Shown: in pieces, positions 12,634-20,235 of the stretch
How positions within the stretch are numbered: the stretch's first letter is position 1
Layout of the letters: each line of letters starts with the position of its first letter
Virus record (IMG/VR): IMGVR_UViG_3300002231_001599
Span: 2,776-23,069 of that record
From: a virus
DNA: 20,294 nucleotides
Strand: one strand, 5' to 3'
The notes under the pieces: generated by a model
What the model was told of the DNA's origin: nothing
Database searches by the model: none
What the model saw: the letters and a program-made list of their open reading frames with translations, nothing else
Position numbers and translations under genes: made by a program

Positions 12634-12810
12634 AATGATAAGCGAATTCGCTTTCTTTAAGTCCTATATTCACCGTTACCTGGACAACAACGCGCCACGG
12701 AACGAGGGCCGTTACACGAATTTTGTTACATAACTCGGTGTAACCCGTTCTCCGCGCGTGTCGCCCTGGCCTGTTAAACCCTGTTAAACCCTGTTAAACC
12801 CTAGTGAACG
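12631..12810. promoter_or_regulatory. AT-rich switch region: palindromes and 10-bp tandem repeats
   Basis: This stretch holds a perfect TATAAT (12631-12636), a 14-bp perfect palindrome around AGCGAATTCGCT (12640-12653), and an inverted pair GTTACAC (12711-12717)/GTGTAAC (12738-12744). Three exact tandem copies of CTGTTAAACC (12771-12800) follow, then a degenerate fourth. The 10-bp phasing places the copies on the same face of the helix, as in operator or iteron arrays. No gene is visible here. An early promoter/operator or replication-related site is inferred. Confidence 0.55.
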
Positions 12811-13091: not shown

Positions 13092-13205
13092 GGTTCGGAA
13101 ATTATGCGTTTCCGAACATTTCCGAACCGTTCTTTTCGCATCAGATTTCGTCTGAAAACGTAGGCTCCTCGCGCCTTCTAGGTTCGGAACTCCACACTTC
13201 CGAAT
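13092..13205. promoter_or_regulatory. Cluster of five TTCGGAA/TTCCGAA operator-like motifs
   Basis: GGTTCGGAAA (13092-13101) and its exact reverse complement TTTCCGAACC (13119-13128) form a 10-bp inverted repeat. A further TTTCCGAAC lies at 13109-13117, exactly ten bases before the right arm. GGTTCGGAA (13181-13189) and CTTCCGAAT (13197-13205) make another inverted pair. Related sequence also occurs inside the next gene (13349-13378). This resembles an operator array for a dimeric repressor in front of the HTH gene. TCAGA-TTTCG-TCTGA (13141-13155) is an additional small hairpin. Confidence 0.6.
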
Positions 13206-13270
13206 CTTATCCTGCCAACTCCCCGCCAAACAATGAGGTTAGTCACACTGCACTAACCGATGGAGGGAGC

Positions 13271-13707: not shown

Positions 13708-14048
13708 ACCCGGCAAAAACGCAACAAACCGCGTCCTGGCAAGTCCGCGGCTTGTTGCTGTGTTTCGGTCCCGACAAGGAACTAGGAACCAATCACATGA
13801 TTTCGAATTTGGCGCAAGTTGTCAATTGCAACGAAACACCACATGACTTGGAAGAAACGCTTCAACGGTTGGCAGACCGCGGTTGCAACCCAGTCGAACT
13901 GGACGGCGGCATTTACCGGGCCGACTGTCCAAAGTGCGGCAGGAAAGGTCGACTTCGAGTCCACGGTCTACGACGAAGACTGGAAGTGCAAATCATTCCA
14001 GCAGTGGATCTTCTGGGAGCTGCGCGACGGTCATCTTCAGGTCATTGA
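13683..14048 (+). pseudogene. Zinc-ribbon (primase-like) gene, probably frameshifted and truncated
   Basis: The frame is 121 codons from ATG 13683 (CGGAG just upstream). Residues about 55-93 read 'LEETLQRLADRGCNPVELDGGIYRADCPKCGRKGRLRV', like the N-terminal zinc ribbon of phage primase/helicase proteins (helix, then CPxC). After the CPKCG motif the frame turns poor: third-position GC falls to about 7 of 26 codons. The +1 frame from about 13966 (VYDEDWKCKSFQQWIFWELRDGHL) keeps 22 of 29 and supplies another Cys. I infer a frameshift near 13955-13970, with the real end near TAG 14089-14091. No helicase or TOPRIM part follows, so the gene appears cut off where the minus-strand GNAT gene begins. 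Confidence 0.45.
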
Positions 14049-14531
14049 CTGGCGTTGGGCGCGAAAGCAGAGAGTCCAGTTGATATGGTAGACCATCTCG
14101 TACGCATCGCCGTTGTCGTAACGCTCCACCTTGCCCGTCGCCAGAAACCCCATGTCGCGAAAGAACAACTGAGCGTCGAGGTTGTATTCAGACACGGTCA
14201 CCACAATTGATGTGCGCCGCTCGGGATTCAACTTTTCGACCATCTGCTCGACCATCTGCTCGCCAACTCCGCAGCGACGTATGTTCGGATGAACCGCGAA
14301 GTTCAAAAGTTCGAGGCCTGACCGTTTGAGGTCGTAGATCATGAACCCGACAACGTGCTCGTCGTGCTCAGCAACCATGCCTATGCAGTTGCGCCGCCTA
14401 AGATTTTGAATGAAATCATCTCTCGTCCACGGGAAGGGATAGCACGACTCCTCGATCTCGAGCACCTCCGCCATGTCACGCCGAATCAACCAGCGAATGT
14501 GCACCGACACTTTGTTGAGTACGTTCGTCAT
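14037..14531 (-). CDS. rimI: RimI-like N-acetyltransferase (GNAT)
   Basis: 164 residues on the minus strand. I take ATG 14531, with GGAG six bases upstream; a longer frame starts at 14579. The GNAT core is complete: 'IRWLIRRDMAEVLEIEESCYPFPWTRDDF' (N-terminal helices), 'NCIGMVAEHDEHVVGFMIYDL' (beta2-4), motif A 'NFAVHPNIRRCGVGEQMV' with the RxxGxG acetyl-CoA loop, and motif B 'VSEYNLDAQLFFRDMGFLATG'. RimI acetylates the N-terminal alanine of ribosomal protein S18; similar folds acetylate other targets. This copy lies in phage surroundings, behind an RHH gene. The last 14 residues (after AYEMVYHI) look like extension into unrelated sequence. Confidence 0.82.
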   Translation of the reverse strand: MTNVLNKVSVHIRWLIRRDMAEVLEIEESCYPFPWTRDDFIQNLRRRNCIGMVAEHDEHVVGFMIYDLKRSGLELLNFAVHPNIRRCGVGEQMVEQMVEKLNPERRTSIVVTVSEYNLDAQLFFRDMGFLATGKVERYDNGDAYEMVYHINWTLCFRAQRQSMT

Positions 14532-14556
14532 GGTTACTCCGTCAGCGCTCATGTGC

Positions 14557-14856
14557 TCATCTGACATCCGATTGCGCACGCTCGCTGTCGAGGGCGATAC
14601 GGATCGAGGTCGCGACGCTCAGCCCGCCCGACGGAGAGATTGGGCGCGGCGGACCGTCGTCTTCTAGCCAGTCCAGGACCGCGGCGCAGACTGCCGCGGA
14701 GCGGCTCATCTGGCACGCTCTGGCGTCGAGCCGCTCTAGCAGCTCCTGCGGGATCGACACAGTGACGACTCTGGCTGGACCCAGTGCGTTCTGGGGTCGG
14801 CCAGGCCCCCGTTTCTTAGTTTCGGATTCCGTTTTCATGCAGTCCGTTTTCATGCA
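14557..14856 (-). CDS. AT-hook plus ribbon-helix-helix DNA-binding protein
   Basis: 99 residues if started at ATG 14856; ATG 14841, or GTG 14928 further out, are also possible and none has a good Shine-Dalgarno. A basic 'KKRGPGRP' AT-hook-like motif (minor-groove binding) precedes a ribbon-helix-helix core: strand VVTVSIP, helix QELLERLDARACQM, turn, helix SRSAAVCAAVLDWLED. The C-terminal 35 residues (PPRPISPSGG ... SERAQSDVR) are not recognised. It is 25 bases upstream of the RimI-like gene and co-oriented. The order RHH then acetyltransferase is that of GNAT-RHH toxin-antitoxin pairs, though the RHH is not clearly DUF1778. Confidence 0.65.
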   Translation of the reverse strand, partial: CMKTDCMKTESETKKRGPGRPQNALGPARVVTVSIPQELLERLDARACQMSRSAAVCAAVLDWLEDDGPPRPISPSGGLSVATSIRIALDSERAQSDVR

Positions 14857-15463: not shown

Positions 15464-15492
15464 TTGACGCCACGCCGCCCGCCCGATAAGTT
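15464..15492 (+). promoter_or_regulatory. Putative promoter for the right-hand operon
   Basis: TTGACG (15464-15469), a 17-base spacer and TAAGTT (15487-15492) precede the gene at 15509. The element TTGACG...GATAAGYT also occurs before the RNA at 17746. The region around it is AT-rich, unlike its surroundings. Confidence 0.45.
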
Positions 15493-15508: not shown

Positions 15509-15868
15509 ATGGCACTAACCCGGGGAAATGAAATGGCCAAGAAGCACGCAGCATCAATGGAAATCAACGGCGTACAAATCGAAGTCCAGGCAATCCTGGT
15601 CCCGAATCACCGCGACGACACCTGTCCAGACATCTCGGCCGAGCCGGTCGTGCTAGACAGCCTGTCGTGGGACGCGACCGAGGTAGAGCGCCTCGCCAAC
15701 GAGATCTCGCAGAAATACGGTTGCCGCCGCGGCGAAAAGAGCGATGCCCTGTGGTGTCTCTCGAAAATGGACACGGCCAGCAGAATCTTCCGCGAGGCCA
15801 GGACGGCCGCGGCCAGGACCGCGCAGCACCGGAAGGACGCCCGCCAGTACAGTCGCGACCTATCCTAG
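15509..15868 (+). CDS. Hypothetical early protein
   Basis: 119 residues from ATG 15509, with AAGGA eight bases upstream. ATG 15533 (111 residues, GGGGA upstream) is an alternative start. I do not recognise the family. The N-terminus is a strand-rich segment (MEINGVQIEVQAILVP), and the C-terminal half is a charged helix rich in Ala/Arg/Lys (SRIFREARTAAARTAQHRKDAR). It opens the right-hand + operon behind the putative promoter. A ten-C run (15882-15891) lies just after its stop. Confidence 0.6.
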   Translation: MALTRGNEMAKKHAASMEINGVQIEVQAILVPNHRDDTCPDISAEPVVLDSLSWDATEVERLANEISQKYGCRRGEKSDALWCLSKMDTASRIFREARTAAARTAQHRKDARQYSRDLS

Positions 15869-15908
15869 AGGATCTCCCGAGCCCCCCCCCCACAGAGCGA
15901 GTTGAGAA

Positions 15909-16145
15909 ATGCACGAGCGAGTGACACGCACGGTAGCCTATGGCTGGATCGAGACCACACTGCGGGCTGAGGTCGGCGACGACGACGGATGCGGGGAGGC
16001 TTGGGCCCGCGTCGAGGATTTGGACGGCGGCGTATGGTATGCGTCGCCGGCCGCGATCGCCGAAATTTTGGGCCAGGTCCATCCAGCGATGGCTGCAATC
16101 GAGATGTGTGTAGCTGCGCCGACGCGTGGTACCTGGCAGATGTAG
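15909..16145 (+). CDS. Small acidic hypothetical protein
   Basis: 78 residues. GAG precedes ATG 15909 but the ribosome-binding site is weak. I do not recognise it. The protein is acidic (VGDDDGCGEAW, VEDLDGG) with a helix-forming end (AIAEILGQVHPAMAAIEM). It follows the previous gene by 40 bases and precedes the sigma-like regulator by 58 bases, so it belongs to the same operon by spacing alone. Confidence 0.5.
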   Translation: MHERVTRTVAYGWIETTLRAEVGDDDGCGEAWARVEDLDGGVWYASPAAIAEILGQVHPAMAAIEMCVAAPTRGTWQM

Positions 16146-16203
16146 CGGCGTTAAGCGGTAGCACCCCGATTCACGACACCACGACACCACAGACGGACCG
16201 ACG

Positions 16204-16926
16204 ATGATGACCGATTTGGCCACCAGCGGCGCGACACATGGCATCGACATCACCGCTGTCACGAGATTGAAGCATGCCGACCTTTACGCCGCGGCGAATC
16301 GACTGGGCAGTCAATCCGCTCTTGCGCGTCATCTTGGCATTCAGCCTTCGGAGCTTGGCGAGTGGATAAATCTCAAGCGGTGCCCTCCCGCTGATCCGAT
16401 CGGTACACGATGGACCGAAGGGTATCTGCTGTCCATGCAGTCCCGACTTCTTGAGCTAACGGGCAAGGATTGGGAGGAGTTGTTCCCGCAGCATCTTCGC
16501 GACAACGTTCAGTTCTTGGATTGCCGCAAGACAATCGAGCAAACGCGTCGCGTTGAGGCTGAAGCGTTGTGCTCATACGCAATTGCCAGTTCTGAGCGGC
16601 TCGCACGGATTTCCAACGACGAGAGTGCCCCGGACCTGCCTGCAGTGTTGGAGAAGGCAATGCACTGTTTAAGCAGTCGCGAGTGCAAGGTATTGTCGGT
16701 TCGTTTCGGTCTGTGGGGTCATGAGCCACACACATTAGAGGCCGCAGAATCTGTCTTTAACGTCAGTCGCGAGCGAATCCGGCAGATCGAAGGCAAGGCA
16801 ATCCACAAGCTGCAATCATGGTTCTCGTTGCATGCAGATGTTCGGTTCGACGAGAGCTTCACGGGCATGCTGCAGCGAGTGGGAAATAACGATGGACTGG
16901 TTGAAATCAACACGAAACAAGCATGA
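16204..16926 (+). CDS. Regulator with HTH and sigma-70 region 4 domains
   Basis: 240 residues. ATG 16204 or 16207. Residues about 26-60 (DLYAAANRLGSQSALARHLGIQPSELGEWINLK) form an HTH of the Cro/XRE type. Residues about 148-205 match sigma-70 region 4: 'AMHCLSSRECKVLSVRFGLWG' (region 4.1) then 'LEAAESVFNVSRERIRQIEGKAIHKL' (region 4.2), the characteristic -35 binding helix-turn-helix with RIRQIE. Region 2 (core binding and -10 recognition) is not visible, so this is not a complete sigma factor. Likely a phage transcription regulator that binds DNA or RNA polymerase near -35 elements; inference. The ATGA overlap couples it to the next gene. Confidence 0.75.
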   Translation: MMTDLATSGATHGIDITAVTRLKHADLYAAANRLGSQSALARHLGIQPSELGEWINLKRCPPADPIGTRWTEGYLLSMQSRLLELTGKDWEELFPQHLRDNVQFLDCRKTIEQTRRVEAEALCSYAIASSERLARISNDESAPDLPAVLEKAMHCLSSRECKVLSVRFGLWGHEPHTLEAAESVFNVSRERIRQIEGKAIHKLQSWFSLHADVRFDESFTGMLQRVGNNDGLVEINTKQA

Positions 16927-17141
16927 GCGGGTCCGTCAGTAGCGCGGAGATTGGGATGCGATTCGAGGTGAGGCAGCGTCTCCGAATTTGCGGAAAGTTC
17001 GCCGGCTATTCGCACGCGTTGCGTCTGGCGAGGACGATTGCAAATGAGACTGGTCGTTACACGCTGATCTGGGATCGCTCGAAAACCGGTAACGTGGTGT
17101 GGACGTCAAATCACGGTCAAATTCGGGAGATAGATGGATGA
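16923..17141 (+). CDS. Small hypothetical protein
   Basis: 72 residues, ATG 16923 overlapping the regulator's stop. It begins with Ser-rich residues and continues 'GMRFEVRQRLRICGKFAGYSHALRLARTIANETGRYTLIWDR', which has a strand-helix-strand look common to small phage proteins of the 'xxALxxAxxLAxxxG' type. Function unknown. It is coupled at its end to the following gene by ATGA. Confidence 0.6.
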   Translation: MSGSVSSAEIGMRFEVRQRLRICGKFAGYSHALRLARTIANETGRYTLIWDRSKTGNVVWTSNHGQIREIDG

Positions 17142-17575
17142 TGAAATATCGGGTCCATTCGGGTCGCGGGGTGCTCGAGTCGGTAATGAGCAGAGATCAC
17201 GCCACCGCAATCGCGGAGCAGATGTGCGCGGAGTACGGCCCGGGGTCACACTGGCTCGAGCCGGCCGGCGGGCTGTGCTCCCGATGCGCTGCACTGTCCG
17301 ACGTGCTGTTGTCCGGCAGGTGCGAGGCCTGCCTTGACCCGTCCGGGCTGTACCCGCGGATGCTGCAAAAGGCGTGCAGGCTGTGCGCGAGCAAGGGCGT
17401 AGAGATGACGCCGGACGAGCTATGGAGCGAGATGGAATCATATCGCTCGCACATATTTAATTTGACTGGTATCTGGGAGCGCGTGCCACGCTTCATCTGG
17501 CGGATAATTTCGGAGCCGGACCAGCTGGCAATGTTTGCCGCGGAACAACGTATCCAGCGAGACGTGACGTCATGA
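17138..17575 (+). CDS. Cys-rich hypothetical protein (zinc-ribbon-like)
   Basis: 145 residues. ATG 17138 overlaps the preceding TGA (ATGA), with GGGAGA seven bases upstream. 'CSRCAALSDVLLSGRCEACLD' carries two CxxC pairs, a likely zinc ribbon or knuckle at about residues 46-66, and 'KACRLCASKG' a third. The C-terminal 50 residues form helices (IWERVPRFIWRIISEPDQLAMFAAE). I do not recognise the family. It lies between two coupled small genes in the right-hand operon. Confidence 0.6.
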   Translation: MMKYRVHSGRGVLESVMSRDHATAIAEQMCAEYGPGSHWLEPAGGLCSRCAALSDVLLSGRCEACLDPSGLYPRMLQKACRLCASKGVEMTPDELWSEMESYRSHIFNLTGIWERVPRFIWRIISEPDQLAMFAAEQRIQRDVTS

Positions 17576-17754
17576 CTGACTCGGACCTTCGCGCAAGAAT
17601 TGAAGAGTTAGAAACTTCGCTGCGGGAGGCCGCATCGTTAATTCGCCTCGGGTCGGAATTCATGCGGCAGCACCTGGTGATTGAGGAATGGTGCCATTTC
17701 CGGGACGCGGCGGTGCGGTTTCGTGAGATTTGTGACAAACGTCTCTTGACGTAA
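17572..17754 (+). CDS. Short coiled-coil protein
   Basis: 60 residues, ATGA-coupled to the preceding gene. It is almost entirely helical: RARIEELETSLREAASLIRLGSEFM has heptad spacing, followed by 'EEWCHFRDAAVRFREICDKRLL'. A dimerising accessory protein is plausible, function unknown. It ends the first + operon; the promoter and RNA element follow at once. Confidence 0.55.
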   Translation: MTDSDLRARIEELETSLREAASLIRLGSEFMRQHLVIEEWCHFRDAAVRFREICDKRLLT

Positions 17755-17773
17755 TTTTCGCCGGCGATAAGCT
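17746..17773 (+). promoter_or_regulatory. Putative promoter before structured RNA
   Basis: TTGACG (17746-17751), 16-base spacer, TAAGCT (17768-17773), similar to the promoter at 15464. The -35 lies inside the last codons of the coiled-coil gene. Transcription would start about 17780, at the first outer stem base. Confidence 0.45.
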
Positions 17774-17777
17774 ATTT

Positions 17778-17925
17778 CGCGATCGGTGCCAGATTTGCAA
17801 AATGCCTGTGAGTGTGACAATGATTCCATTCTGCGTGGTGGCTTACGGGCGCGGTTGGCACCGATCCTCTCAATCACCACCAGACACCCCGCCAGGCCCC
17901 ACACTCCCTGGCGGGGTTCTTTTTT
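17778..17925 (+). ncRNA. Candidate structured small RNA or leader
   Basis: An 11-bp perfect outer stem (17781-17791 with 17856-17866) encloses a 9-bp inner stem (17804-17812 with 17842-17850; two G-U pairs) and a small hairpin AATG/CATT (17819-17830). A 20-base single-stranded linker leads to a 10-bp perfect terminator hairpin with a T-tract. This 145-base module, promoter to terminator, fits a stand-alone small RNA, or a riboswitch-like leader for the operon that starts at 17960. The segment CACCAC (17875-17880) can also pair with GTGGTG (17835-17840), allowing two alternative folds. No match to a known class is recognised. Confidence 0.5.
17887..17924 (+). terminator. Rho-independent terminator of the structured RNA
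   Basis: CCCCGCCAGG (17887-17896) pairs perfectly with CCTGGCGGGG (17907-17916) and is followed by TTCTTTTTTT. The hairpin is one of the strongest in the window. Confidence 0.85.
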
Positions 17926-17959
17926 TATGGTCCTGGTCTGAGACAGGGGGGGCGAGGAA

Positions 17960-18631
17960 GTGACCGCGAGCGGCAAGATATCGATCAAGCTTGGAACGAC
18001 CATTTGCACCGTCGAGGCAGACAACGCGAAGGACGCATTTCGCCTTCTGTCTGAGTTCTCCGAGATCATCCAGGCACAGCAGTGCATCAAATGCAAGTCG
18101 CGTCTGCGGCACGTCCATCGCGTGGCCCAGAGCAAGTTCCACTACTTCGAGCAGCGCTGCACGAGCCCGCGCTGCGGGTGGCGACTGACCTACGGCGACA
18201 GCGATGAGCACGGGCTGTTTCCGAAGGGGTGGGAACCACCCTACGAGGCGCAGAACGAAGGACAGCAGACGGTCGACGCGCTCAAGGAATCGGGACAGAT
18301 CAAGACGGGGGCGCAGGTGGCGGCCGAGAAACCGAAGACGCCCGAGCAGATTTACGAGCAGTCGTCGGCGTATCTATTCGCGCGTGAGTCGGTCGCGGAT
18401 CTGGGCCAGGCCCGCGATCACATGCGACAGTCGGATTCACTGACCTACGAACAAAAGGTCACGCTGCATGACGTGGTGTATGCCCGCTGGTTCGCGTTGT
18501 GCCAGGACGTGGACGAATTCCGCGCGATGGCGGATGCGCTCGAGAAGGACGAGGCCGATGGCTGGATAAATAAGGACGCCGCAACAAAACACTACCGGAA
18601 GATAAACCCCCGACTTGAGGAGATGCTGTAA
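17960..18631 (+). CDS. Phage zinc-ribbon protein, early region
   Basis: 223 residues. GTG 17960 with AGGA six bases upstream. After a strand-rich start (ISIKLGTTICTVEADNAKDAFRLLSEF) there is a zinc ribbon: CIKC (about 42-45) and 'RCTSPRCGWRLTYG' (about 67-78), then 'EHGLFPKGWEPPY', which resembles phage proteins with a GW-type motif after a Cys knuckle, often found beside recombination or DNA-metabolism genes. The C-terminal part is Glu/Ala/Lys-rich and helical, with a 'SSAYLFARESVADLGQARDHM' segment. Exact role unknown. The stop and next start share one base (TAATG). Confidence 0.6.
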   Translation: MTASGKISIKLGTTICTVEADNAKDAFRLLSEFSEIIQAQQCIKCKSRLRHVHRVAQSKFHYFEQRCTSPRCGWRLTYGDSDEHGLFPKGWEPPYEAQNEGQQTVDALKESGQIKTGAQVAAEKPKTPEQIYEQSSAYLFARESVADLGQARDHMRQSDSLTYEQKVTLHDVVYARWFALCQDVDEFRAMADALEKDEADGWINKDAATKHYRKINPRLEEML

Positions 18632-19530
18632 TGAAGGACGTTGATCGTTTTCAAAAACTGAATCGTCCGCTAACCGACGATGAGCGGGCGTCGTTGAGGT
18701 CCAGCATAGAGGCCAAGGGGTGTTTGAATCCGGTCGTGATGATGCAGGGCGACGTGATAATCGACGGCTACAACCGCTGGGAGATTTGCAAAGAGCTGGG
18801 GATCAAGGCGCCTGTAAAGCTGATGACGTTCGCCTCGGAGGATGCGGCGTACGAGTTCGCGATTGGCCTGCAGCTTGGCCGGCGGAACGTCTCCACCAGC
18901 GATCGGGACCGCCTTCTCGGGGAGTTGTATCGCGTCCGAAAAAACGGACATGGCGGAGACCGCAAGTCTGAAAAACCCGAGGAAAAATCAAGTGGTCAAA
19001 GTGACCACTTGAAAAAAACGTGCGAACAGATCGCTTCCGAAGTTGGCGTTTCGGAGCGGACGGTTCGACGTGCCGCCGAGGCGGCCGAGGCGCGCGAGAA
19101 CCTGACGCCGGCGGCCGCAGAGTTGGTCGAGGAGAAGGGTGCGTCACGGGCGGACCTGGTCACCCTGTCGCAGAAGGAACCCAACGACCAAGAGCGGGTG
19201 GTCGACGCGGTGCGTGCCGGCGCAGAAAACGTACACGCTGCCTTGTCTCGCCTCGAATCGGAATCAGCGGGAGAAAAAGAGCTGCAGGCAAACTTCGATG
19301 ATGCCGTGGGCCATCATCGCGCCGCCAAGGCAGCGGTCGACAAAATAAAGCGAGAGTTCCAGTGCGCGGCAAACGACCCCGGCGGCGATTATCTGCGATC
19401 GACAGTCGGCCGCCTGGTCGGCCACCTGAACGACGTGCGCAACTGGCTGCACGCGAACGAGCCAACCGAGCTGGTCGACGGCAGGTTCGTGACGCGATTC
19501 AGAAAGTCTCAGGACAAAAAAAACGATTGA
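18631..19530 (+). CDS. ParB-like nuclease-domain protein
   Basis: 299 residues. ATG 18631 in TAATG overlap with the preceding stop. 'LNRPLTDDERASLRSSIEAKGCLNPVVMMQGDVIIDGYNRWEICKELGI' is the ParB/Srx-fold start (IxDGYNRWEIxKELG), shared by phage ParB-like proteins. 'EQIASEVGVSERTVRRAAEAAEA' is an HTH, and 'SSGQSDHLKKT' before it is a recurrent motif of these proteins. The C-terminal half is helical with Ala/Glu-rich segments. In other phages such proteins regulate transcription or act as nucleases; role here inferred. A perfect palindrome inside the gene (18989-19011) encodes the SSGQSDHL part and could be a binding site. Confidence 0.78.
   Translation: MKDVDRFQKLNRPLTDDERASLRSSIEAKGCLNPVVMMQGDVIIDGYNRWEICKELGIKAPVKLMTFASEDAAYEFAIGLQLGRRNVSTSDRDRLLGELYRVRKNGHGGDRKSEKPEEKSSGQSDHLKKTCEQIASEVGVSERTVRRAAEAAEARENLTPAAAELVEEKGASRADLVTLSQKEPNDQERVVDAVRAGAENVHAALSRLESESAGEKELQANFDDAVGHHRAAKAAVDKIKREFQCAANDPGGDYLRSTVGRLVGHLNDVRNWLHANEPTELVDGRFVTRFRKSQDKKND
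18989..19011. promoter_or_regulatory. Perfect palindrome inside the ParB-like gene
   Basis: CAAGTGGTCA and its reverse complement TGACCACTTG flank a three-base AAG spacer. It is a good candidate for a parS-like or operator site bound by the encoded protein, or it may only reflect the conserved peptide it encodes. It is not a terminator, since A's, not T's, follow it. Confidence 0.45.
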
Positions 19531-19701: not shown

Positions 19702-20235
19702 ATGCGAAAAACGCTTCCAGATGAACACGGATGGTATTGGTCGAAGTCGCCAAGCGACGGCGATTGGTGCATGGCGTTTGTCAACATGAACCGCGAAACG
19801 ATCACGCTTTTCGATGGTGTCGATCCGCGAAACGACCAGATTGAATACCCAATGGACGAGTTTGAAAACAGCGACCGGCATTGGTACGGGCCGTTCAACT
19901 GCCCTGGTACGGACTTCGGCCAGCACACGATTGTCATGGAGGAGGAACAGCACCAAAAGGCAGAGCGGGACGGCGAGGCAATCGTAGTGACGTATGCCGA
20001 CTTCCACCACTGTGACGACCTGCACTCAAGTATCGCAATAGTAGGGAGATGCAGCGAGGAAGCAGCCAGGGCGATTACCCAGCGTGAGACGCGAGAAATG
20101 GGCATAGAAAGCAAACTCGTCAAGTTGTGTCGTGAGCTTGATACGGAACTGGACGGTGTTCGTTTGCCTGCCACCGCTGCTGCCGTTGCTAACGGCATCA
20201 GGTGTACGCTTGAGCGACTGGAGGACAACGCATGA
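19702..20235 (+). CDS. Hypothetical protein, early region
   Basis: 177 residues. ATG 19702 with AGGAG eight bases upstream. The N-terminal domain is a compact Trp/Gly-rich fold: 'DEHGWYWSKSPSDGDWCMAFVNMNRETITLFDGVD', and 'HWYGPFNCPG'. Short phage proteins with 'GxYWxK......W.......WYGP' patterns are common and of unknown function. The C-terminal part is helical with 'ESKLVKLCRELDTELDGVRLPA'. It follows the repeat-bearing gap after the ParB-like gene and is ATGA-coupled to the next gene. Confidence 0.65.
   Translation: MRKTLPDEHGWYWSKSPSDGDWCMAFVNMNRETITLFDGVDPRNDQIEYPMDEFENSDRHWYGPFNCPGTDFGQHTIVMEEEQHQKAERDGEAIVVTYADFHHCDDLHSSIAIVGRCSEEAARAITQRETREMGIESKLVKLCRELDTELDGVRLPATAAAVANGIRCTLERLEDNA

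Follow-up and report, generated by a model that had tools for sequence, protein, structure and literature searches.

The 205-nt gap between two operons of an uncultured siphophage (upstream ORF end at 17754, GTG start at 17960) carries a promoter-like element, a long hairpin, a 15-nt linker and an intrinsic terminator, in that order. We read this arrangement, with moderate confidence, as a phage promoter–structured RNA–terminator module which gives an RNA of about 147 nt and gates an operon of replication-type genes. The window, that is the whole stretch of 20,294 nt which was analysed, covers bases 2776-23069 of the IMG/VR virus record IMGVR_UViG_3300002231_001599 (record size 23,069 bases), and the source phage is tailed and encodes a tape measure protein and a capsid protein of the HK97 type. 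From the elements seen in the sequence, the fold predicted for them and the arrangement of the genes we infer transcription, termination efficiency and regulated read-through as follows. RNA polymerase would start near 17780, at the foot of the long hairpin, and most of the transcription would stop at the terminator at 17927, leaving the short RNA of about 147 nt. The downstream operon would be expressed solely by read-through, either through leakiness or through an antitermination factor of the phage or the host, and the polymerase which reads through may have started at this promoter or have come through the preceding operon. The terminated product would be a stable short RNA, for which an action in trans is a possibility.

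The genes on both sides of the gap lie on the + strand. The upstream ORF (17572-17754, 60 aa) overlaps its preceding gene by ATGA and lies at the end of the preceding operon (15509-17754). The first gene past the terminator encodes a zinc-ribbon-like orphan protein (17960-18631, with the RBS GAGG at about 17953) and the second gene of the same operon encodes a ParB-like protein (18631-19530). In the overlapping contig IMGVR_UViG_3300002231_000349 this operon is extended by a DEAD/ResIII helicase and a RusA-like resolvase; the gene types of the operon (zinc-ribbon, ParB-like, helicase and RusA) are replication-type. By codon-usage scoring both 17572-17754 and 17960-18631 were inside the coding range, whereas the frames tested in 17755-17959 fell below it. 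A small protein in the gap was considered and rejected, the tested frames scoring lower than all coding segments used for training, and the 205-nt gap does not look coding.

The promoter-like element TTGACG-N16-(CGA)TAAGCT (17746-17773, + strand) was already pointed out in the first-pass annotation, made from the letters of the sequence, and was found as described there, within a base or two. Its TTGACG (17746-17751) overlaps the final codons of the upstream ORF and is followed, after a spacer of 16 bases, by TAAGCT (17768-17773). Against the sigma-70 consensus the -35 matches at five of six positions and the -10 at only three of six, and a generic sigma-70 scan made no call at 17746-17773; the poor -10 counts against the module. 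A second copy, TTGACG-N17-TAAGTT (15464-15492, + strand), stands upstream of the preceding operon and is the one further occurrence in the window. The two copies differ by one base and one spacer base, and TTGACG and CGATAAG are common to both. When CGA was part of the pattern and up to one mismatch was allowed, the window gave 2 sites and 60 shuffles gave none; without CGA there were 2 sites against a shuffle mean of 0.23. The pair was noticed after the fact, hence we take the repeat as moderate support only. The earlier proposal that the RNA has a promoter of its own is plausible, though the -10 is weak. The predicted start, 6-8 bases past the -10 (about 17779-17781), coincides with the foot of the outer stem of the hairpin, and both the repeat and this placement of the start on the first base of the stem argue for the module. 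The protein encoded at 16204-16926, which has a weak match to a YdaS/Cro-like N-terminal HTH together with a sigma-70 region 4 domain, is a candidate regulator of both promoter-like elements.

The long hairpin (17781-17866, + strand) has a minimum free energy of -39.2 kcal/mol with a z of -4.3, a value matched by 0 of 200 shuffles, and its pair probabilities are above 0.999. It is made up of 11 perfect pairs (17781-17791/17856-17866) and one G-U, then 4 pairs, and inside them a nested 9-bp stem with G-U pairs (17804-17812/17842-17850); the perfect outer stem and the nested stem with wobble pairs had both been noticed before and are seen again here. The fold of 17770-17925 reaches -65.7 kcal/mol (z -4.1), so that hairpin and terminator together fold far below shuffles with near-certain pairs, which speaks for the module. 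The energy of the hairpin by itself is not exceptional, because the window holds five pairs of perfect 11-bp inverted repeats whose arms are separated by 100 nt or less, two of which belong to the RNA unit, and about 18 of 2,023 segments of 86 nt, both strands counted, have an equal or lower z. The hairpin alone is therefore in about the top one percent by z and is not unique, a point which again counts against the module. The hairpin and the strong terminator together are rarer than the hairpin alone: among 29 strong terminators found in this phage and capsid-related ones, 1.17 Mb in all, the upstream hairpin here has the second most significant z and is the most stable of the hairpins whose z is under -3. 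Elsewhere in the window, the segment around a perfect 11-bp stem followed by TTTTT, AAGTGGTCACTTTGACCACTTGATTTTT (18986-19012, - strand), gave the most extreme fold z, -6.8; this terminator-like element lies inside the ParB-like ORF, antisense to that coding gene.

The intrinsic terminator (17882-17927, + strand) consists of a 14-bp GC-rich stem with one unpaired base, a 10-base loop and the T-rich tail TTCTTTTTTTA, and with the linker before it (17867-17881) it bears out the earlier description of a linker and a very strong terminator. An alternate fold by GTGGTG (17835) and CACCAC (17875) had also been offered. Both motifs exist, but their predicted pairing probability is about 1e-6 and forcing the pair costs 8 kcal/mol, with the terminator still intact, as it was in all the folds computed. 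A competing fold which breaks the terminator, the feature of an attenuator or riboswitch, was not seen in the predicted folds of the unit. The alternate fold being disfavoured and the terminator remaining intact, the predicted folds do not support an attenuator switch. Hence, of the two roles suggested in the first-pass annotation, a small RNA or a transcription-attenuating leader, the leader is favoured in the form of read-through, with the small RNA as its other product, and the terminator/antiterminator switch is not supported. A kissing pair GAGTGTG/CACACTC, joining 17810-17816 with the terminator loop, was rejected, as 5% of shuffles did equally well. A promoter scan called none in the gap of about 33 nt between the terminator and the zinc-ribbon gene; the downstream operon would need read-through because there is no room for a promoter of its own.

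Transcripts of the upstream operon would also end at this terminator, therefore the unit could simply be the ordinary 3′ end of the 15509-17754 mRNA, in which the hairpin protects the message or is processed, the terminator ends it and the promoter match is weak or due to chance. The unit begins 26 bases past the stop codon of the last gene with no terminator between, and the weak -10 and the stable hairpins found elsewhere in the window fit the same view. We hold it to be rather unlikely, though the strongest of the alternatives, since the element matches the one at the start of the preceding operon, the predicted start fits the base of the stem, and the downstream operon would be left without a nearby promoter of its own.

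The linker CTCTCAATCACCACC (17867-17881, + strand, 15 bases) is predicted to be unpaired in the RNA of about 147 nt, and its complementarity to the end of the upstream gene is a feature beyond those of the first-pass annotation. The complementary segment (17675-17696, + strand) lies inside the upstream ORF and was not equalled in score by any of 3,000 shuffles; it forms 11 pairs and one G-U with 17869-17879 and, colinear with these, 7 pairs with 17856-17862. In longer transcripts a 12-bp helix, 17675-17686/17868-17879, is predicted with a probability of about 0.99, the hairpin and the terminator staying intact. In controls restricted to the linker, with 20,000 sequences of each kind, equal complementarity was reached by 5 dinucleotide shuffles and 39 codon-order shuffles, and 861 synonymous recodings which keep the protein (4.3%) reached 11-base complementarity. 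The match may represent a long-range RNA helix, an antisense seed or a repeat at the DNA level.

As an antisense seed, the linker would belong to an independent small RNA acting in trans, with the end of the upstream gene as one target and the leader of the zinc-ribbon gene as a possible second; the zinc-ribbon gene is the best predicted start-region target of the linker (-16.8 kcal/mol). The unpaired state of the linker and its 12 pairs with 17675-17686 agree with this, but the same complementarity arises in the stated share of synonymous recodings and no homologues were found, so that such a role looks improbable. Still more doubtful is a DNA-level element, in which the GGTGCCA repeats (17675-17696, 17781-17791 and 17856-17879) would be operator or partition-type sites, for example for the ParB-like protein, and the RNA fold a by-product. 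Of the four GGTGCCA copies in the window, three do cluster around the promoter in a span of about 175 bp, and the match of 11 and 7 colinear bases between 17675-17696 and 17856-17879 exceeds the need of the RNA fold; the nested stem and the terminator are however left unexplained, and the window holds no further full copies. We give an equally small chance to a lineage-specific cis-acting RNA which drives read-through without a protein, or to an RNA with two promoters, in which the linker would pair with the end of the upstream gene in the long transcript only, so that translation of that gene would change the RNA before the replication operon.

In lambda, the pR′–tR′ region has the same promoter–leader–terminator arrangement and is under Q antitermination. 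In phage 21, pR′–tR′ comprises a promoter, a short untranslated RNA and an intrinsic terminator, and then an operon which depends on read-through (PMC6606751). The phage analysed here likewise has, by its sequence, a promoter, a short untranslated leader, a terminator and an operon, but the operon holds replication-type genes whereas pR′–tR′ of lambda and 21 precedes late genes, and the leader has a long hairpin which is predicted from +1. When the initial transcribed region was checked for a -10-like pause element, CAAAAT was found at +18 with four of six matches. Neither a Q-family protein nor an antiterminator family was recognised among the early proteins scanned (Pfam, PHROGs and NCBIfam), where both contigs may be incomplete, and because no Q-family protein was recognised the unit is not filed as a pR′–tR′ leader. 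IsrK of the Gifsy-1 prophage has its own promoter and terminator, a fraction of its transcripts reads through into the operon, and its short form acts in trans (PMC4825925); its layout is alike, but the present unit has no Rfam match and other gene content. The module is favoured because its layout is that of the lambdoid pR′–tR′ modules and of IsrK. HK022 putRNA is characterised by direct binding to the zinc-binding domain of the RNA polymerase beta′ subunit and by antitermination that needs no protein factor. A cis-acting RNA which modifies the polymerase so that it ignores later terminators, like HK022 putRNA (two stem-loops in about 70 nt right after an early-type promoter; PMC9378689), is the least probable of all the readings, for although a structured RNA likewise stands right after the promoter-like element, at a predicted 5′ end ahead of a replication-type operon as putL stands just after PL, and the weak CAAAAT at +18 compares with +23 to +28 in putL (PMC9378689), the two stem-loops are replaced by a single long hairpin of 86 nt, a strong terminator follows it directly and no sequence similarity was shown.

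As it stands, the unit adds an orphan example to the known architecture of phage promoter, structured leader and terminator. If real, it would be a regulatory RNA point ahead of a replication operon, in a siphophage without close early-gene relatives in the collections searched, and would allow promoter–leader–terminator control to be tested in a phage that is not lambdoid. It would also be one of many RNAs which are invisible to family-based searches.

The only other copy found was in IMGVR_UViG_3300002231_000349 (L002/L019), which shares 99.9% identity with the window over 9.9 kb and does not differ from it in the RNA. No covariation is added by so close a copy, and the view that the arms differ by G-U as in conserved RNAs gained nothing from it. 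This contig diverges from the window near 20102 and carries a shorter version of the ORF at 19702 (128 aa against 177 aa), so that the assemblies or variants are not the same there. Rfam 15, searched with the whole window, gave no family at or above the gathering threshold, in agreement with the earlier opinion that the RNA is undescribed; the best match below the threshold was rli38 (28.4 against 49 bits), largely over the terminator and linker. The exact stem pattern searched in IMG/VR returned only the near-identical contig, as did the zinc-ribbon, ParB, helicase, sigma-like and 17099 proteins, and searches of phage and plasmid DNA gave nothing useful. A covariance model, R1, yielded no convincing homologue in 40 capsid-related virus records or in about 1,290 genomes taken from four phyla, namely 392 from the phylum of a Gemmata genome, 398 from that of a Burkholderiales, 251 from that of a Chloroflexi and 247 from that of a Bryobacterales genome. 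The weak hits look like chance; L036 falls inside an ABC-transporter gene in antisense orientation, and the likeness of L040 to the model is mostly in its terminator. The capsid alignment found 186 IMG/VR relatives, which share no more of the early region than single distant genes, and the early genes adjoining the RNA are orphans in the collections searched. The lack of homologues is not evidence against the RNA. A hairpin with a terminator in a capsid-related phage (L130:17150-17290, - strand) was also inspected and set aside; its position coincides in part with the beginning of a transposase-like ORF read from the opposite strand, and no likeness to the present unit was seen.

Other features were observed in the remaining part of the window. 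A RimI-like acetyltransferase is encoded at 14037-14579 on the - strand (TIGR01575, 72.6 bits, under the curated cut-off). A short tandem repeat CCTGTTAAAC of about 3 copies occupies 12770-12803, in the gap ahead of 12824. Direct and inverted TTCGGAA/TTCCGAA repeats occur at 13092-13207, in a stretch without an obvious gene, and are possibly operator or origin sites.
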